From positions 1 through 21,450 of IMG/VR virus record IMGVR_UViG_3300020370_000164: a stretch of DNA of 21,450 bases; one strand, 5' to 3'. Under the pieces are notes generated by a model. It was not told the DNA's origin, searched no databases, and saw nothing but the letters and a program-made list of their open reading frames with translations. Shown piece after piece: positions 5,610 through 11,399 of the stretch. The first letter of the stretch is position 1. Each line of letters begins with the position of its first letter. Origin of the DNA: a virus. The position numbers were made by a program, and so were the translations under genes.

Positions 5610-5855
5610 ATGTGGAGGATATGGAAATATGCGTTGGGTAGCTTTTCTGACGAAAAAACTGAACCCTACGACAACTACATTGTTTTGGTACGTTCTGTTA
5701 TTTTCGTATCTTATCTCGTCACTAACTGTTTTATTATTGCAGGGGTCATAAGACACTGGGGTGACAATCAAGAAACTGTCACCTTGTCACCTGACACTCT
5801 TGCTGTAAGTGCTATGATAGGTACATCTAAGAGGAACTATGACAATCAACGCTGA
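5610..5855 (+). CDS. Small single-span membrane protein
   Basis: An 81-aa protein. The ATG at 5610 is chosen because it follows the strong GAGGAGG at 5597-5603; a TTG at 5595 in the same frame would place the ribosome site inside the gene. A hydrophobic segment (about residues 26-47, VLVRSVIFVSYLVTNCFII) should cross the membrane once, with a short charged N-terminus and a polar tail. It overlaps the start of the downstream VWA protein by 17 bases, so the two are probably translated together. No family was recognised. Confidence 0.75.
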   Translation: MWRIWKYALGSFSDEKTEPYDNYIVLVRSVIFVSYLVTNCFIIAGVIRHWGDNQETVTLSPDTLAVSAMIGTSKRNYDNQR

Positions 5856-7977
5856 AGTAAAAGGAACCCTTGCTAAACTACTAGCAACAGAAGATTTGAC
5901 TGTAGAGCATCGTCAGGTACAGACTGCTTCATTTGATGTTAACAATCGTGTATTGACCCTACCTATCTGGAAGGACGCTTCAGAGACCGTATACGACCTT
6001 CTGGTGGGACATGAAGTAGGACATGCTCTATACACCCCTAACATTCCAATCGATGCTCCTAAAGGATTTGTGAACGTTATAGAGGATGCTCGCATCGAGC
6101 GTATGATGAAGCAAACATATCCTGGTCTTAGGAAGTCATTCTTTGAAGGGTATAGAGAACTATGGCATAAGGATTTTTTTGGTGTTGCAGATGAGGAGAT
6201 ATCAGAACTAGCATTTATTGACCGCATTAACTTATTCTTTAAAGGTAATAGTTCAATAGAATTTAATGATGAGGAGCAAGTCTGGGTTAATCGTGTAGCA
6301 TCAACTAAAACATTTGATGATGTCTTAGAACTTTCTAGAGAATTATATGAGTGGGCAAAGGGTCAGCAAGAAGCTAAAGAAGCACAAGTACCTGACGAGT
6401 TAAATATTGATTGGGATAATCCTGTTGCTGGTAATGAGTTAGAGCAAGAGGTTGATACTAACAATAAAGAAGATGGTGAAGGTGAAGGTGAATCAGAAAG
6501 ACCTAATAATCAAAAATCACTTGAAGAGAGAATGGATGAGTTAGAGGATGCAATGTATGAGGATGATGCTATTGGTGGTACTGATGGTAGTGCTGATGAG
6601 ACTGAGAGTGTTACAGACAGAGCATTGCAAGAGTCACTAGAAACTTTAGTTGATGAAGATAGTAAAGAGTGGGTTTATTTAGATCTACCTAAAATTAATT
6701 TAAAGGAAACTGTTGTACCTTATCAAACTGTACAGGAAGAATTAGACTGTGGATTCTATGGTAGAGCATGTCGTGACAGAGATGACCATGATTATTACTT
6801 TGATTCTTTGAAGTTTGCTGAGAAGCATTATGAATCATATAAGAAAGAAGCACAACGTAGTGTTAACTATCTTGTAAAACAGTTTGAGATGAAAAAGTCT
6901 GCTGATGAATATAAGAGAGCAGCAACATCTAAGACTGGTGTTCTTGATACTCAGTCACTATACAAGTACAAGTTAAGTGATGATATCTTTAAGAGAGTCA
7001 CAGTAGTTCCAGAAGGTAAGAATCATGGGTTAGTATTCTATCTTGATTGGTCTGGGTCAATGCAAAATATTTTATTAGATACACTTAAACAGACTTTCAA
7101 TTTAGTATGGTTCTGTAGGAAAGCACAAATTCCATTTAGAGTATATGCATTCCAAAATGGTTGGGAAAGACATGACATTCATCCAGCAGTTAAAGATGAT
7201 TTAAATGTACTTTCATTCTGTAATGGGTTTAAACTTTTTGAATTCTTTTCATCAAGGCAAAACAAACAATCTTTAGAGAAATCTATGAGGTTGGTTTATA
7301 CTCAAGCGTTTGCTATGAATGGACATCGTTTACCTTACGTACAAGATTACACTCTTGGTGGTACTCCTCTTGGTGAAGCGGTCTTATGCTCCAGATTACT
7401 TGTTGAGCAAATGAAGAATGTTGAGAAGGTTCAGAAAGTAAATGTAGTTTGCTTGACTGATGGTGAAGCAAATCCTATGCAGTATAATTATAAGGGTCAA
7501 GATTATTATTATGAAGATGAAACGATTAGAACTAAAACTTTGTCTATGCATAAAAAATATATACTAAGAGATTCTAAAACTGGTTATACTCGTGAGTTTA
7601 AACCAAGTCCATATTTAACAACCCAACAGATTGTTGGTTTCTTTAGAGAGATTACTGACTTCAATTGGATAGGCATTCGTATCTGTACTAAGAATGAACT
7701 GAAAAGAAATGTTCGTATATTAGACTACGAAGATGCTGAGAGAATGGAGAATCAATGGTCTAAAGAAAAGTATGCAGCAGTTAAGAAATTACTTGGGTAT
7801 ACTGAAGCATTCTTTATACCATCTCAGGGTATGGGAGATGGCACTCAAGACCTTGAAGTAAAACAGAAGGGTGAAGTTGCAACTAGAGCAGAACTTAATC
7901 GTGCATTTAAAAAGCACATGGGTTCTAAGATGACAAACAAAACTATCTTAAACAAATTTGTGGAGCAAATAGCATGA
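5839..7977 (+). CDS. HExxH metallopeptidase-like / VWA domain protein (CobT-like)
   Basis: A 712-aa protein with two modules. Residues 53-90 contain GHEVGHAL (HEVGH at 58-62) followed by NVIEDARIE near 79-87, the zinc-binding arrangement of a metallopeptidase-like domain. An acidic, low-complexity linker (about 195-265, rich in E, D and G) follows. The C-terminal half is a von Willebrand factor A domain with the MIDAS motif DWSGS at 403-407, a TLGGTPLGEA segment that supplies the MIDAS threonine, and a later LTDGEAN strand. HExxH-VWA and CobT-type proteins work with MoxR/CobS-type AAA+ ATPases, and such an ATPase (CobS) is encoded at 10323-11399. Whether the pair inserts a metal or remodels a protein cannot be told from sequence. 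Confidence 0.88.
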   Translation: MTINAEVKGTLAKLLATEDLTVEHRQVQTASFDVNNRVLTLPIWKDASETVYDLLVGHEVGHALYTPNIPIDAPKGFVNVIEDARIERMMKQTYPGLRKSFFEGYRELWHKDFFGVADEEISELAFIDRINLFFKGNSSIEFNDEEQVWVNRVASTKTFDDVLELSRELYEWAKGQQEAKEAQVPDELNIDWDNPVAGNELEQEVDTNNKEDGEGEGESERPNNQKSLEERMDELEDAMYEDDAIGGTDGSADETESVTDRALQESLETLVDEDSKEWVYLDLPKINLKETVVPYQTVQEELDCGFYGRACRDRDDHDYYFDSLKFAEKHYESYKKEAQRSVNYLVKQFEMKKSADEYKRAATSKTGVLDTQSLYKYKLSDDIFKRVTVVPEGKNHGLVFYLDWSGSMQNILLDTLKQTFNLVWFCRKAQIPFRVYAFQNGWERHDIHPAVKDDLNVLSFCNGFKLFEFFSSRQNKQSLEKSMRLVYTQAFAMNGHRLPYVQDYTLGGTPLGEAVLCSRLLVEQMKNVEKVQKVNVVCLTDGEANPMQYNYKGQDYYYEDETIRTKTLSMHKKYILRDSKTGYTREFKPSPYLTTQQIVGFFREITDFNWIGIRICTKNELKRNVRILDYEDAERMENQWSKEKYAAVKKLLGYTEAFFIPSQGMGDGTQDLEVKQKGEVATRAELNRAFKKHMGSKMTNKTILNKFVEQIA

Positions 7978-8597
7978 GCATTTGGGATGGATATCGGGAG
8001 GCAGTATTTACTACGTTTCCCGATTTAAAATTTGAGAGTAATCATGTAGAGTGGACTAATAAAAGAAATGTCCATTTAACTGCAGATCTATATTCTGGTA
8101 AGCATTTTATCAAGTCTAGGCACGTTGATATATGGGATGGTACTGTTGATATCCATAACAATATAATATACCCTAAGACTGGACATAACCTTCCTTGCTT
8201 TGGTATGGACTTGATGGGATTTAATAAGAAGAAAGTTATTATTGTATTTGACTTCCAGCATCCAGTGGAGAATTTTCTATTAGATGTACCACCATTACCT
8301 GAAACAACAGAGACCTATCGTTTCTTTGAGAAGGGTAATCACTTCTCTAATAATATCTTTGTAAGGTATTGTGAGATGGATGGAGTTGATACATTCTTAC
8401 CAACATTTAAATACTATCTGTCACTCTATAAGGAAATGATAGATAAAGCAAAACCAACTGAAGAAGATACAACAGTCTATAAAGACTTTGATTCTTATAT
8501 GATAAGATTAGACCCTATCTCAGGATATCTTTCACATCAATTTGGTAAAGATGAATCTGAAAAATTAATCAAGGAGTTCTTTTTTAGTTATGCCTGA
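7974..8597 (+). CDS. pebS: PebS, phycoerythrobilin synthase
   Basis: A 207-aa ferredoxin-dependent bilin reductase. In the characterised phage family PebS reduces biliverdin IXalpha to phycoerythrobilin in two ferredoxin-driven two-electron steps. The sequence follows phage PebS closely from memory: YPKTG..LPCFGMDLM, KKVIIVFDFQHP, YRFFE-GNHFS-NIFVRYC and YKEMID..KP..EDTTVY-DFD. The two catalytic aspartates correspond to D79 (FGMD) and D180 (RLDP); their spacing of 101 residues equals that of D105 and D206 in P-SSM2 PebS. The protein is shorter only at the N-terminus, by about 26 residues. It overlaps the upstream VWA gene (ATGA) and the downstream pcyA by 8 bases. No heme oxygenase or ferredoxin gene is in the window. 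Confidence 0.93.
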   Translation: MSIWDGYREAVFTTFPDLKFESNHVEWTNKRNVHLTADLYSGKHFIKSRHVDIWDGTVDIHNNIIYPKTGHNLPCFGMDLMGFNKKKVIIVFDFQHPVENFLLDVPPLPETTETYRFFEKGNHFSNNIFVRYCEMDGVDTFLPTFKYYLSLYKEMIDKAKPTEEDTTVYKDFDSYMIRLDPISGYLSHQFGKDESEKLIKEFFFSYA

Positions 8598-9294
8598 GTT
8601 AGTACAAGACATAGCAGTTTTACTTTCATTTACTATGAAAGACATTGAGGGTGTAAAACCTTTAGAGTGTCCTATACCAGAAGTAAAGAAAGATGATTTG
8701 TCTATTAAGAACACAATGTATACTGCACCTGGTCTCAGGAAGATACATTTAGAGTTAGCAGAATTAAAGGGAATGAAGATACTACATTCAGTATTCTTTC
8801 CTGACCCAAATTACAATCTTCCTATTTTTGGATGTGACATTGTTGCTACTGAGAAAGTAATCACTGCTGCTATCGTTGATGTATCTCCTGTACGAGGTTT
8901 TAATGAATGGGATGAGATAAGAGAAGTTAGTAACAATTTTAATATTGGTGAGAAGAGACCACTTCCATTATGGGGTGATGAAATATTCTCTCCTTATTGT
9001 AAGTTTATGCGTATTACTGAGGACATAGATATGGCAAATTTCTACTGTCTTGTTTTAAACTATCTTGGTATATATTGTAGGTTACATCAGAAAGCTATAA
9101 GAGACCCAGATTGGTGTGCAGCAATGCTTAGATATGATGACCAAATATATTATTGTGACCAACAAAGAAAGAATGATAAGACTCGTGGTATATTACTGAA
9201 GTGGTTTGATGAGGAATGGACAGATAAATATATCAATAGTGTATTATTTGATAAACCAAACTCGGATGATATAACCTATGCAGGGTGTAATTAA
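8590..9294 (+). CDS. pcyA: PcyA, phycocyanobilin:ferredoxin oxidoreductase
   Basis: A 234-aa ferredoxin-dependent bilin reductase of the PcyA branch, which makes phycocyanobilin from biliverdin. Key blocks are [40 protein letters not shown] and [10 protein letters not shown]. The catalytic histidine and aspartate (H88 and D105 of Synechocystis PcyA) match H66 and D83 here with the same 17-residue spacing, and E55 is a candidate for the PcyA glutamate (E76). That glutamate, missing as far as known from the related phage PcyX, favours PcyA. The start overlaps pebS by 8 bases and the end overlaps ndhI by 17. The product was not tested, so an altered bilin product is possible. Confidence 0.88.
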
Positions 9295-9820
9295 TTACTT
9301 AAAAGAAGTAAAGGATACTGCTAAATATCTGATACAAGGGTTAGGTGTAACCTTTGATCATATGCGTAGGAGACCTGTAACTATACAGTATCCCTACGAA
9401 AAACTAATACCTTCTGAAAGATACAGAGGACGTATACACTTTGAAATGGATAAGTGTATTGCTTGCGAAGTATGTGTCAGGGTATGTCCTATTAATCTCC
9501 CAGTAGTCGATTGGGTGATGAATAAGGAAGCAAAGAAAAAAGAACTTAGAAACTATTCGATAGACTTTGGGGCTTGCATATTCTGTGGAAATTGTGTAGA
9601 ATACTGTCCAACCAACTGTCTCTCGATGACGGAGGAATATGAACTTTCTACATTCGATAGGCACTCACTCAACTATGATAATGTCGCTCTTGGACGACTG
9701 CCCACTAATGTTACAACTGACCCCTCAGTTAGGGCCATGCGTGAGTTGGCTTACTTACCAAAAGGAAAGATGGACCCACATGAAGTACCAGACAGTGACC
9801 CAAGGGTAGCAGCAAGATGA
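9278..9820 (+). CDS. ndhI: NdhI, ferredoxin-like subunit of the cyanobacterial NDH-1 complex
   Basis: A 180-aa protein almost identical, as far as I can recall, to marine cyanobacterial NdhI, the peripheral-arm subunit carrying iron-sulfur clusters N6a and N6b that passes electrons from ferredoxin towards plastoquinone. Two complete CxxCxxCxxxCP motifs bind the 4Fe-4S clusters: C60/C63/C66/C70 and C100/C103/C106/C110. The blocks [23 protein letters not shown] and [17 protein letters not shown] are typical. Host NdhI is about 210-218 aa, so this copy has a shortened N-terminus and tail. The ATG at 9278 lies inside pcyA. Base composition looks richer in G and C than its neighbours, in line with recent acquisition from a host. 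Confidence 0.93.
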
Positions 9821-9951
9821 TTTTAGAAACATTCTTAATAGCTGCAGCATTACCGTTTGTAGCATTGTCACTTTACTTTGGAAGTAAGGGTGGTTATTAT
9901 GATAGTGATGATTATACTGGTGATGGTTGTGCTCACGATGTCCAACGATGA
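9817..9951 (+). CDS. 44-aa single-span membrane protein, candidate small NDH-1 or photosystem subunit
   Basis: An ATG at 9817 overlaps the ndhI stop (ATGA) and opens a 44-codon frame ending at TGA 9949-9951. The protein begins [20 protein letters not shown], one membrane helix, followed by a polar tail ([16 protein letters not shown]...AH). The tail, with adjacent tyrosines and acidic residues, looks like a small bitopic thylakoid protein. Its size (about 4.8 kDa), single helix and position directly after ndhI make a small NDH-1 subunit such as NdhP the leading hypothesis, but I could not verify the family from memory. A small photosystem subunit is the alternative. Coupled to ndhI before it and psaJ after it. 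Confidence 0.8.
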
Positions 9952-10091
9952 ATAATCTATTTAAAATCTTTTACACTAAATGGTTTAGATCTGCACCAGT
10001 TGTAGCAACCATTTGGTTGACTGTTACAGCAGTCATACTCATAGAGTTTAATTACTTCTTCCCAGACCTTTTGTTCCATCCTATGCAATGA
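9948..10091 (+). CDS. psaJ: PsaJ, photosystem I subunit IX
   Basis: A 47-aa protein starting at an ATG that overlaps the preceding stop (ATGA). It has the PsaJ plan: a short N-terminus with a TK..RSAPVVA motif, one membrane helix ([14 protein letters not shown]) and a C-terminal [13 protein letters not shown], which matches cyanobacterial PsaJ from memory. PsaJ lies at the edge of photosystem I near PsaF and the plastocyanin/cytochrome docking site. It is the only photosystem I gene in this window; psaF, psaA or psaB are not here. The length is 3-4 residues above the host norm. It overlaps the next gene by four bases. Confidence 0.9.
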
Positions 10092-10255
10092 AACCTATTA
10101 AATGGGAAGCTTATATCTTATTAGAATCTAATAGATTAACTAAGGTAGAGTTTCTTTGTACATCAAATTTAAGACAAGATGCTGAACAGAAATGTAAAGC
10201 AATGTTTGGTGTATCTGATGTAAGGCAGTTGAAACGGATATGGACAGATGAATAA
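10088..10255 (+). CDS. 55-aa conserved small protein
   Basis: An ATG at 10088 overlaps the psaJ stop (ATGA) and opens a 55-codon frame ending with TAA at 10253-10255. The product ([20 protein letters not shown]..., ending [15 protein letters not shown]) has one or two short strands, a helix and a basic patch, with no membrane segment. It looks like a small soluble cyanophage protein of a kind often placed before cobS, which would mark the downstream border of the metabolic cassette. Function unknown; a real gene by overlap and coding character. Confidence 0.7.
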
Positions 10256-10269
10256 GTGTCCATAGCTTA

Positions 10270-10305
10270 TTGATATGCTTTTTAATTCTGTTATAATAAG
10301 CATAT
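10270..10305 (+). promoter_or_regulatory. Sigma-70-like promoter of cobS with nested dyads
   Basis: TTGATA at 10270-10275, a 16-base spacer and TATAAT at 10292-10297 lie in the short gap before cobS. Two inverted repeats are interleaved with it: ATATGCTT (10273-10280) with AAGCATAT (10298-10305), and CTTATT (10266-10271) with AATAAG (10295-10300). They could form alternative hairpins or be a binding site over the -10 box. Transcription would start near 10304, leaving a leader of about 19 bases. Confidence 0.6.
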
Positions 10306-10322
10306 AGAAACAAAGAGTCATT

Positions 10323-11399
10323 ATGCCAATCAAGTCAGAAGTTACTACTGAAGAAATCATTTCCTTTCTTAAGGACAAGCATGGACCTAAAGCCAAAGTT
10401 GATACCATTGACTTAAGAGCTGCTGGTAAAAAATTCAAACTATCTTATCCTACAGTCAATAAAAGACTTAAGCAGTATAAGAAGGGAAGAGGTACTTGGG
10501 ACTTAACTGCTCTAGATATAGAGAAAGCATATAAAGCACCTGCTGCTGAACCTGCCGTTAAAGTTTCTTATGTTCCAGAAAAAGATTCGAGCTATGTACC
10601 CTTCGGGAATGCCCCTTCTCTTAAGAAGATTATTAATTCTAGACATTTTTACCCTGTTTTTATTACTGGTCTTAGTGGTAATGGTAAGACATTGGGGGTA
10701 GAACAGGCATGTGCAATTCTAAATAGAGAATTGATACGTGTTAATATAACAATTGAAACCGACGAAGATGACCTTATTGGTGGCTTCCGTCTTGTCAATG
10801 GTGATACTGTTTTTCATAATGGACCAGTGGTCGAGGCTTTGGAGAGGGGAGCTGTACTCCTTTTAGATGAGATTGACTTGGCATCTAATAAGATTCTATG
10901 TTTACAATCAGTACTAGAAGGTAAAGGTGTATTCCTTAAGAAGACTGGAAGGTATGTTAAACCTGCTGCTGGATTCACAGTCATTGCCACCGCTAATACA
11001 AAAGGTAAGGGTTCTGATGATGGACGTTTCGTAGGAACCAATGTTCTTAATGAAGCATTCCTTGAAAGATTCCCAGTAACCTTTGAGCAAGACTATCCAT
11101 CACCAGTTATTGAACAGAAGATTCTAAAGAATGTTGGATGTGAATTGACATTTGCTGAAAATCTGGTAAAATGGGCAGGAGTGATACGTAAAACATTCTT
11201 CGATGGAGGAGTGGATGAAGTTATCACAACACGTCGTCTAGTACACATTGCACAAGCATACTCTATATTTGGTGACCGCCTAGTAGCTATCACCAATTGT
11301 GTTAACAGATTTGATGATGATACTAAACAATCATTCTTAGATTTGTATACTAAAGTGGATGCTGGTGAAGAAACCGAAACCCCCGAAGGAGAATTTTAA
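10323..11399 (+). CDS. cobS: CobS-like AAA+ ATPase
   Basis: A 358-aa AAA+ ATPase of the MoxR/CobS clade, the protein annotated as CobS in T4-like cyanophages after the cobaltochelatase subunit of cobalamin biosynthesis. The Walker A motif GLSGNGKT is at 116-123 and Walker B LLLDEID at 179-185; a sensor 1-like IATANTKG and a conserved 'GTNVLNEAFLERF' arginine-finger region follow. The N-terminal ~65 residues are basic and helical (KRLKQYKKGRG), perhaps a DNA-binding or partner-binding domain. MoxR-type ATPases work with VWA proteins, and one is encoded at 5839-7977 upstream of the cassette. Direct chelatase function is not proven. The stop overlaps the next start (TAATG). Confidence 0.9.
   Translation: MPIKSEVTTEEIISFLKDKHGPKAKVDTIDLRAAGKKFKLSYPTVNKRLKQYKKGRGTWDLTALDIEKAYKAPAAEPAVKVSYVPEKDSSYVPFGNAPSLKKIINSRHFYPVFITGLSGNGKTLGVEQACAILNRELIRVNITIETDEDDLIGGFRLVNGDTVFHNGPVVEALERGAVLLLDEIDLASNKILCLQSVLEGKGVFLKKTGRYVKPAAGFTVIATANTKGKGSDDGRFVGTNVLNEAFLERFPVTFEQDYPSPVIEQKILKNVGCELTFAENLVKWAGVIRKTFFDGGVDEVITTRRLVHIAQAYSIFGDRLVAITNCVNRFDDDTKQSFLDLYTKVDAGEETETPEGEF

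Follow-up and report, generated by a model that had tools for sequence, protein, structure and literature searches.

A cyanomyovirus locus with bilin, NDH-1 and photosystem I genes is made of two modules

Genes at the locus

We analyzed a stretch of viral DNA of 21,450 bases (hereafter the window), in which genes for bilin reductases, the NDH-1 complex, and photosystem I lie side by side. The window is all that IMG/VR record IMGVR_UViG_3300020370_000164 spans, i.e., about 21 kb of a larger genome. It belongs to a marine cyanomyovirus, whose nearest isolate is P-SSM7 (44% of the window covered at 81.0% identity), and it represents a region of replication genes, with uvsW-like helicase, gp55-, gp47-, gp46-, gp45-, and gp44-like genes on the two sides of the locus. 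Five genes of the + strand, pebS, pcyA, ndhI, ndhP (ORF44), and psaJ, occupy positions 7974-10091. A reading of the sequence alone had described them as one overlapping chain, and we re-derived the successive overlaps of 8, 17, 4, and 4 bases. That reading also regarded them as one built cassette of bilin, NDH-1, and photosystem I genes, a view that our comparisons do not support. The locus is composed of two modules, a resident pebS-pcyA pair and an ndhI-ndhP-psaJ block (hereafter the trio) inserted start codon to start codon. The phage that harbors them is a P-SSM7-like cyanomyovirus, and the slot lies between a cobT-like gene and cobS. The features are as follows (lengths in amino acids, aa; ORF, open reading frame).

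5839..7977, + strand: cobT-like gene, 712 aa, phrog_459 ('peptidase'); bounds the slot upstream and shares 4 bases with pebS
7974..8597, + strand: pebS, 207 aa, phycoerythrobilin synthase-like ferredoxin-dependent bilin reductase
8590..9294, + strand: pcyA, 234 aa, phycocyanobilin:ferredoxin oxidoreductase
9278..9820, + strand: ndhI, 180 aa, NDH-1 subunit I
9817..9951, + strand: ndhP (ORF44), 44 aa, one-helix NDH-1 subunit, phrog_2173 (function unassigned in PHROG)
9948..10091, + strand: psaJ, 47 aa, photosystem I subunit IX, start ATG 9948
9278..10087, + strand: ndhI-ndhP-psaJ insertion, 810 bp, beginning with the start codon of ndhI and ending one base ahead of that of the 55-aa ORF
10088..10255, + strand: 55-aa ORF, next gene after pcyA at the empty site; shares 4 bases with psaJ
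10270..10297, + strand: promoter-like site TTGATA-16-TATAAT with TG before the -10, ahead of cobS
10323..11399, + strand: cobS-like gene, phrog_249; bounds the slot downstream

The two bilin genes both match the Fe_bilin_red family. The nearest solved relative of the pebS product is phage PebS (2vck, E=5.7e-73); its Asp79 and Asp180 align to Asp105 and Asp206 of P-SSM2 PebS, its start lies about 20 residues later than in that protein, and no equivalog reaches its NCBIfam cut-off. We regard this first gene as PebS-like, with phycoerythrobilin as a predicted product only. The pcyA product is above the cut-off of the PcyA equivalog (215.9 vs 206 bits), and its Glu55, His66, and Asp83 align to Glu76, His88, and Asp105 of solved PcyA. 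We take the Asp pair in PebS and the Glu/His/Asp set in PcyA to be the catalytic residues.

The ndhI product is above the cut-off of the NdhI equivalog TIGR00403 (309.9 vs 302.35 bits), an assignment for which the C-terminal tail of NdhI is not required. Compared with the 6hum_I sequence, it keeps the two 4Fe-4S motifs, with all eight cysteines, and the ferredoxin-docking lysines equivalent to 86, 89, and 91. Passages of the work on the NDH-1 structure (PMC7021789) locate two Fe-S clusters and the ferredoxin contacts in NdhI, the three lysines being such contacts, and situate NdhP in the NdhD1/NdhF1 module.

The NdhP chains of solved NDH-1 structures match ORF44 (6khi_P, E=3.7e-7; 6hum_P, E=1.7e-6). 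Of 10 host genomes, 9 have a match to a profile built from ORF44 and its relatives, with the solved NdhP stretch included; one of these matches contains an internal TGA, and the host copies are 45-67% identical to the phage protein. From these matches ORF44 is NdhP, a one-helix NDH-1 subunit predicted to assemble into NDH-1L next to NdhD1/NdhF1. Two isolates have 'hypothetical' genes that are NdhP-like, PSSM2_253 in P-SSM2 (L094:4001-4135) and PTIM40_27 in P-TIM40 (L002:6873-7004). The latter is 65% identical to ORF44 and adjoins ndhI with an overlap of 4 bases, but no psaJ was found in the P-TIM40 record.

The last gene is psaJ. Its product scores 60 bits against PF01701 (cut-off 22.4) and 82.6 bits against the PsaJ equivalog (cut-off 69), and it is predicted to be incorporated into photosystem I. 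The start at ATG 9948 gives 47 aa and the overlap of 4 bases with ORF44, whereas the mechanical list of ORFs starts the gene at TTG 9927. Family, equivalog, and solved-structure matches thus bear out the identities first proposed for pebS, pcyA, ndhI, and psaJ, and ORF44 now has a name.

The chain of overlaps is longer than five genes, since the cobT-like gene runs into pebS and psaJ into the 55-aa ORF. Across the window, 21 of the 29 neighbouring gene pairs listed overlap, 11 of them by 4 bases. Overlap as such is therefore ordinary in this phage, and we dropped it as a remarkable feature.

A resident bilin pair and an inserted block

The site without the block is found in relatives of the window: among the contigs examined, 34 related ones have pcyA and the 55-aa ORF in direct overlap. 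In the window and in the independent contig L004, which has the same gene order, the start codon of ndhI occupies the position that the start codon of the 55-aa ORF has in relatives such as L100. At its other end the block joins this ORF through an ATGA overlap with psaJ. The G+C content is 39.1% in the inserted block and 33.6% in pebS-pcyA. Because related contigs show this empty site without the trio, we dropped the candidate of one five-gene cassette.

The bilin pair is stable where the trio is not. A scan of IMG/VR with pebS, of which we kept the best 80 of 223 relatives, revealed a pcyA-like gene next to pebS in 78 of the 80 loci, but ndhI after that in only 2. To find the pcyA-ndhI junction itself, we searched IMG/VR with a degenerate pattern (the window's own record is possibly left out of such scans), which matched two contigs besides the window, one of them ending inside ndhI. 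The exact five-gene order is hence rare, as had been claimed, and pebS is next to ndhI in none of the 12 records of the phage collection with a close ndhI. Isolates show parts of the arrangement. P-RSM6 has overlapping pebS-pcyA, P-SSM4 has pcyA in the cobT-cobS slot, and P-SSM2 has a phage pebS, all as in the window, but none of them has the trio beside these genes. In some contigs (L097-L130), near-identical pebS genes are accompanied by divergent versions of pcyA, 68% or 93% identical to that of the window, so pcyA itself has seemingly been exchanged.

One might still expect the five genes to form a single functional unit, with bilins and electron-transfer subunits serving one task. They lie on one strand in unbroken overlap. 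Bilin reductases take electrons from ferredoxin. NDH-1 draws on it too, according to portions of PMC7021789, and a shared ferredoxin pool could be the link. We surveyed the gene content of the 50 longest-contig records among 90 records with ndhI, most of which are fragments, and identified bilin reductases in 12. They adjoin ndhI in the record of L004, lie about 1 kb from it in two (L072, L073), and are roughly 7-124 kb away in the other nine. A further locus, L076, has a pcyA-like gene about 0.8 kb from ndhI, which makes, with L072 and L073, three other loci with a bilin gene within about 1.1 kb of ndhI. Most loci of the trio have no adjoining bilin gene, and pebS-pcyA occurs without the trio. 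With these distances, the few matches to the junction, and the 2 of 80 pebS loci followed by ndhI, we consider such a five-gene unit very unlikely.

The cargo of the slot varies from phage to phage. P-SSM4 has pcyA there and P-SSM7 unrelated ORFs, and two divergent single-cell viruses, O18 and E15 (L087, L091), have ndhP and ndhI there, with psaJ as well in O18, in a different order. In two other contigs (L113, L156), psaJ precedes the cobT-like gene at a distance of about 0.6 kb; pebS-pcyA is present and there is no ndhI within the fetched stretch. The 55-aa ORF, for which no Pfam, PHROG, or NCBIfam match was found at E<=1, comes after pcyA in many related contigs; in L088 and a few others it comes after ndhP. 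Given these varied upstream neighbours, it belongs to the same exchangeable set of small genes.

Local signals in the window are few. The promoter scan found 28 sites against a mean of 22.6 in shuffled sequences, which is not clearly above the shuffles overall, and the only site given weight is the strong one before cobS, a candidate border of the transcription unit. The terminator scan gave 2 (2.8 in shuffles), the late-promoter motif ATAAATA had 5 matches where 9.6 were expected and thus no signal, and the tRNA scan of the window found none.

Recurrence and origin of the trio

To assess how often the three genes occur together, we collected 91 viral ndhI loci: the best 80 of 187 relatives in IMG/VR, 8 single-cell virus records, P-TIM68, P-TIM40, and the window. 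Gene order was tallied in the 65 loci whose flanks reach 700 bp or more on each side, leaving out 26 with shorter flanks. The commonest order is ndhP-psaJ-ndhI (19 loci), followed by ndhP-ndhI (12), ndhI without the other two (11), ndhI-ndhP-psaJ (6), ndhI-ndhP (6), psaJ-ndhI-ndhP (3), the order of the window (2), and six further patterns found once each. The complete trio is present in 32 of the 65 loci, in shuffled order. Neighbours within the trio are joined by 4-base ATGA overlaps in 71 of 104 pairs; in annotated stretches of cyanophages the figure is 20 of 87. This comparison is a description and not a test, as the loci are related. One contig of 12 kb (L011) carries three copies of ndhP around ndhI and psaJ.

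As these loci were found through ndhI, we also ran scans that made no use of it, with DNA patterns that match the ends of psaJ and NdhP. The psaJ pattern matched 40 contigs, of which 21 have 800 bp on both sides; ndhI is at most 800 bp away in 20 of the 21. Among these 20, ndhP is within 800 bp in 18, and in the other two it follows ndhI. The ndhP pattern matched at least 120 contigs; in the 117 matches analyzed, ndhI lies within 800 bp in 32 of the 72 with full flanks. Hence, psaJ is tightly tied to ndhI and ndhP less so.

The three genes of the trio come from separate host loci. All 80 host ndhI loci share surrounding genes with Prochlorococcus MIT 9314 (at least 3 ORFs), which we read as ndhA, ndhG, and ndhE, and neither ndhP nor psaJ was found near ndhI in any of the 80. 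In all 8 host genomes where ndhP and psaJ were both found, they are on separate contigs or more than 200 kb apart. Since the genes have host homologues, one could suspect host DNA or an assembly artefact. We regard this as extremely improbable, and dropped host contamination as a candidate: phage replication genes flank the locus, L004 has the same order independently, and the host ndhI locus shares at most one ORF with any of the 91 viral loci. Viral NdhI also forms a clade of its own. In a tree of 77 viral rows (identical rows merged, L043 and L049 dropped as short) and 23 rows from the 80 host loci, the two sets are separate with support 100/92, although the bootstrap had not settled. Viral NdhI splits in two clades, and that of the window is outside the clade of P-TIM68. 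A standalone psaJ near ndhI is found in none of the 34 loci of the P-TIM clade and in 40 of the 57 others, the short rows L043 and L049 being counted among the 57.

The trio is under purifying selection. The median ratio of nonsynonymous to synonymous substitution rates (dN/dS) is 0.083 for ndhI (55 sequences), 0.098 for ndhP (37), and 0.061 for psaJ (39), from ungapped in-frame comparison of hits with at least 80% identity and dS of 0.1-1.5 (L052-L083 left out).

Such a pattern might also arise by passive hitch-hiking, if the slot gathers host-derived genes by recombination and small ATGA-joined genes recombine easily, without any joint function. The varied cargo of the slot, the overlaps common in these genomes, and the frequency of ndhP without ndhI nearby, among the matches listed, are all compatible with it, as are the flanks of the trio, which differ so widely that the commonest pair is shared by 6 of the 91 loci. 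We nevertheless consider hitch-hiking unlikely, because psaJ is beside ndhI in nearly all contigs with full flanks, the genes derive from separate host loci, and their association outlasts reordering even at one site: the commonest flank pair encloses psaJ-ndhI-ndhP in L019, L039, and L041 and ndhI-ndhP-psaJ in L027, L033, and L044.

Photosystem I genes and cyclic electron flow

Viral photosystem I genes have been described before: P-TIM68 and GOS scaffolds have the cassette psaJF-C-A-B-K-E-D (Sharon 2009 and Fridman 2017, as cited in passages of PMC5019241), and psaD-C-A-B is another form of such a cassette. According to a review (PMC6359870), P-TIM68 enhances cyclic flow. Like the window, this cyanomyovirus combines photosystem I genes with a close ndhI, in the order psaD, a membrane-protein gene, then ndhI, and an effect on cyclic flow has been proposed or reported. 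The window differs in that ndhP adjoins ndhI and psaJ is free, not fused to psaF; psaA, psaB, psaC, psaD, psaE, and psaK were not found among the window ORFs examined at 5839-11396. In the 50 surveyed records, PsaA/PsaB is found only in P-TIM68, and we therefore dropped a full photosystem I cassette as a candidate. PsaJ is found in 24 of them, with 22 strong standalone matches and two weak ones that correspond to psaJF (P-TIM68 and the record of L064). As a rule, the trio occurs without the core genes of photosystem I.

The sequence-only reading had also called this mix of genes unusual and distinct from known photosystem I cassettes. The exact order is rare, but to regard such mixes as unknown would be too strong, since the single genes have been reported. 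Viral psaJ alone is credited to Sharon 2011 in what we draw from PMC4511924 and PMC5019241, and viral ndhI, ndhD, and ndhP of Complex I to Sharon 2009 and Philosof 2011 in excerpts of PMC3877843 and in the review PMC10452541. As in that work, psaJ stands alone in uncultured cyanophages and the subunits are I and P; the window adds the linkage of psaJ to ndhI and ndhP as a unit and the clean insertion. We saw no ndhD, for which no search was aimed. Our searches of the open literature found no paper combining cyanophage, ndhI, and psaJ, nor psaJ, ndhP, and virus. The linkage and the clean modular insertion were thus not found in open papers, and the linkage may already appear in the originals of Sharon 2011 and Philosof 2011.

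The explanation we favor, and consider fairly likely, is a two-part mosaic in the slot, in which the trio supplies host NDH-1 and photosystem I with subunits, in support of cyclic electron flow. The presence of NDH-1 and photosystem I genes fits such a role, as first suggested. The resident pebS-pcyA would serve phycobilin synthesis with electrons from reduced ferredoxin, and ndhI-ndhP-psaJ would be a mobile mini-cassette inserted as a single block. Judging from the sequences, the phage proteins may join or replace host subunits: NdhI would renew the ferredoxin-docking 4Fe-4S arm of NDH-1, NdhP would steady the distal NdhD1/NdhF1 membrane module, and PsaJ would be renewed or exchanged on photosystem I. 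The outcome would be more, or longer-lived, cyclic flow from ferredoxin to plastoquinone, and ATP, during infection. The trio thus probably helps the infected cell to keep its energy supply by cyclic electron flow. The bilin enzymes would adjoin the trio mainly by the shared slot, though they would draw on the same ferredoxin pool; it is possible that they serve the same end through ferredoxin, which their distribution does not indicate.

Several observations weigh against this explanation. The NdhI of the window (180 aa) lacks the host-type C-terminal tail; viral copies mostly have 180-194 aa and host ones 199-214. From a comparison of the window with L086, L001, L222, and L199, NdhI of the window's clade stops at about the point from which host NdhI extends into a conserved tail, and NdhI of P-TIM68 keeps part of that tail. 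Since P-TIM68 also carries psaA, psaB, and other photosystem I genes, ndhI cannot be made responsible for its physiology. The genes are also found apart: ndhP has no ndhI nearby in 40 of the 72 full-flank matches among those listed, P-SSM2 has an ndhP-like gene and no close ndhI match in the phage collection, psaJ is apart from ndhI in L396, L113, and L156, and the two are on different contigs in the single-cell virus E15. Finally, related contigs are not independent samples. One could also imagine a bolder role, in which the trio is a minimal viral retrofit kit whose proteins jointly re-tune the host complexes, perhaps favoring the association of NDH-1 and photosystem I, with the truncated tail of NdhI as part of the change, and in which a handful of small genes has the effect on cyclic flow that P-TIM68 obtains with a full photosystem I cassette. 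We consider this distinctly unlikely.

These results suggest that many cyanophages alter cyclic flow through single subunits of two host complexes, and not through a whole photosystem, and that the genes of the trio are exchanged as units bounded by start codons. They give a name, NdhP, to the unannotated phage family phrog_2173, including the genes of P-SSM2 and P-TIM40 mentioned above. Closely related contigs with and without the trio provide natural comparisons.

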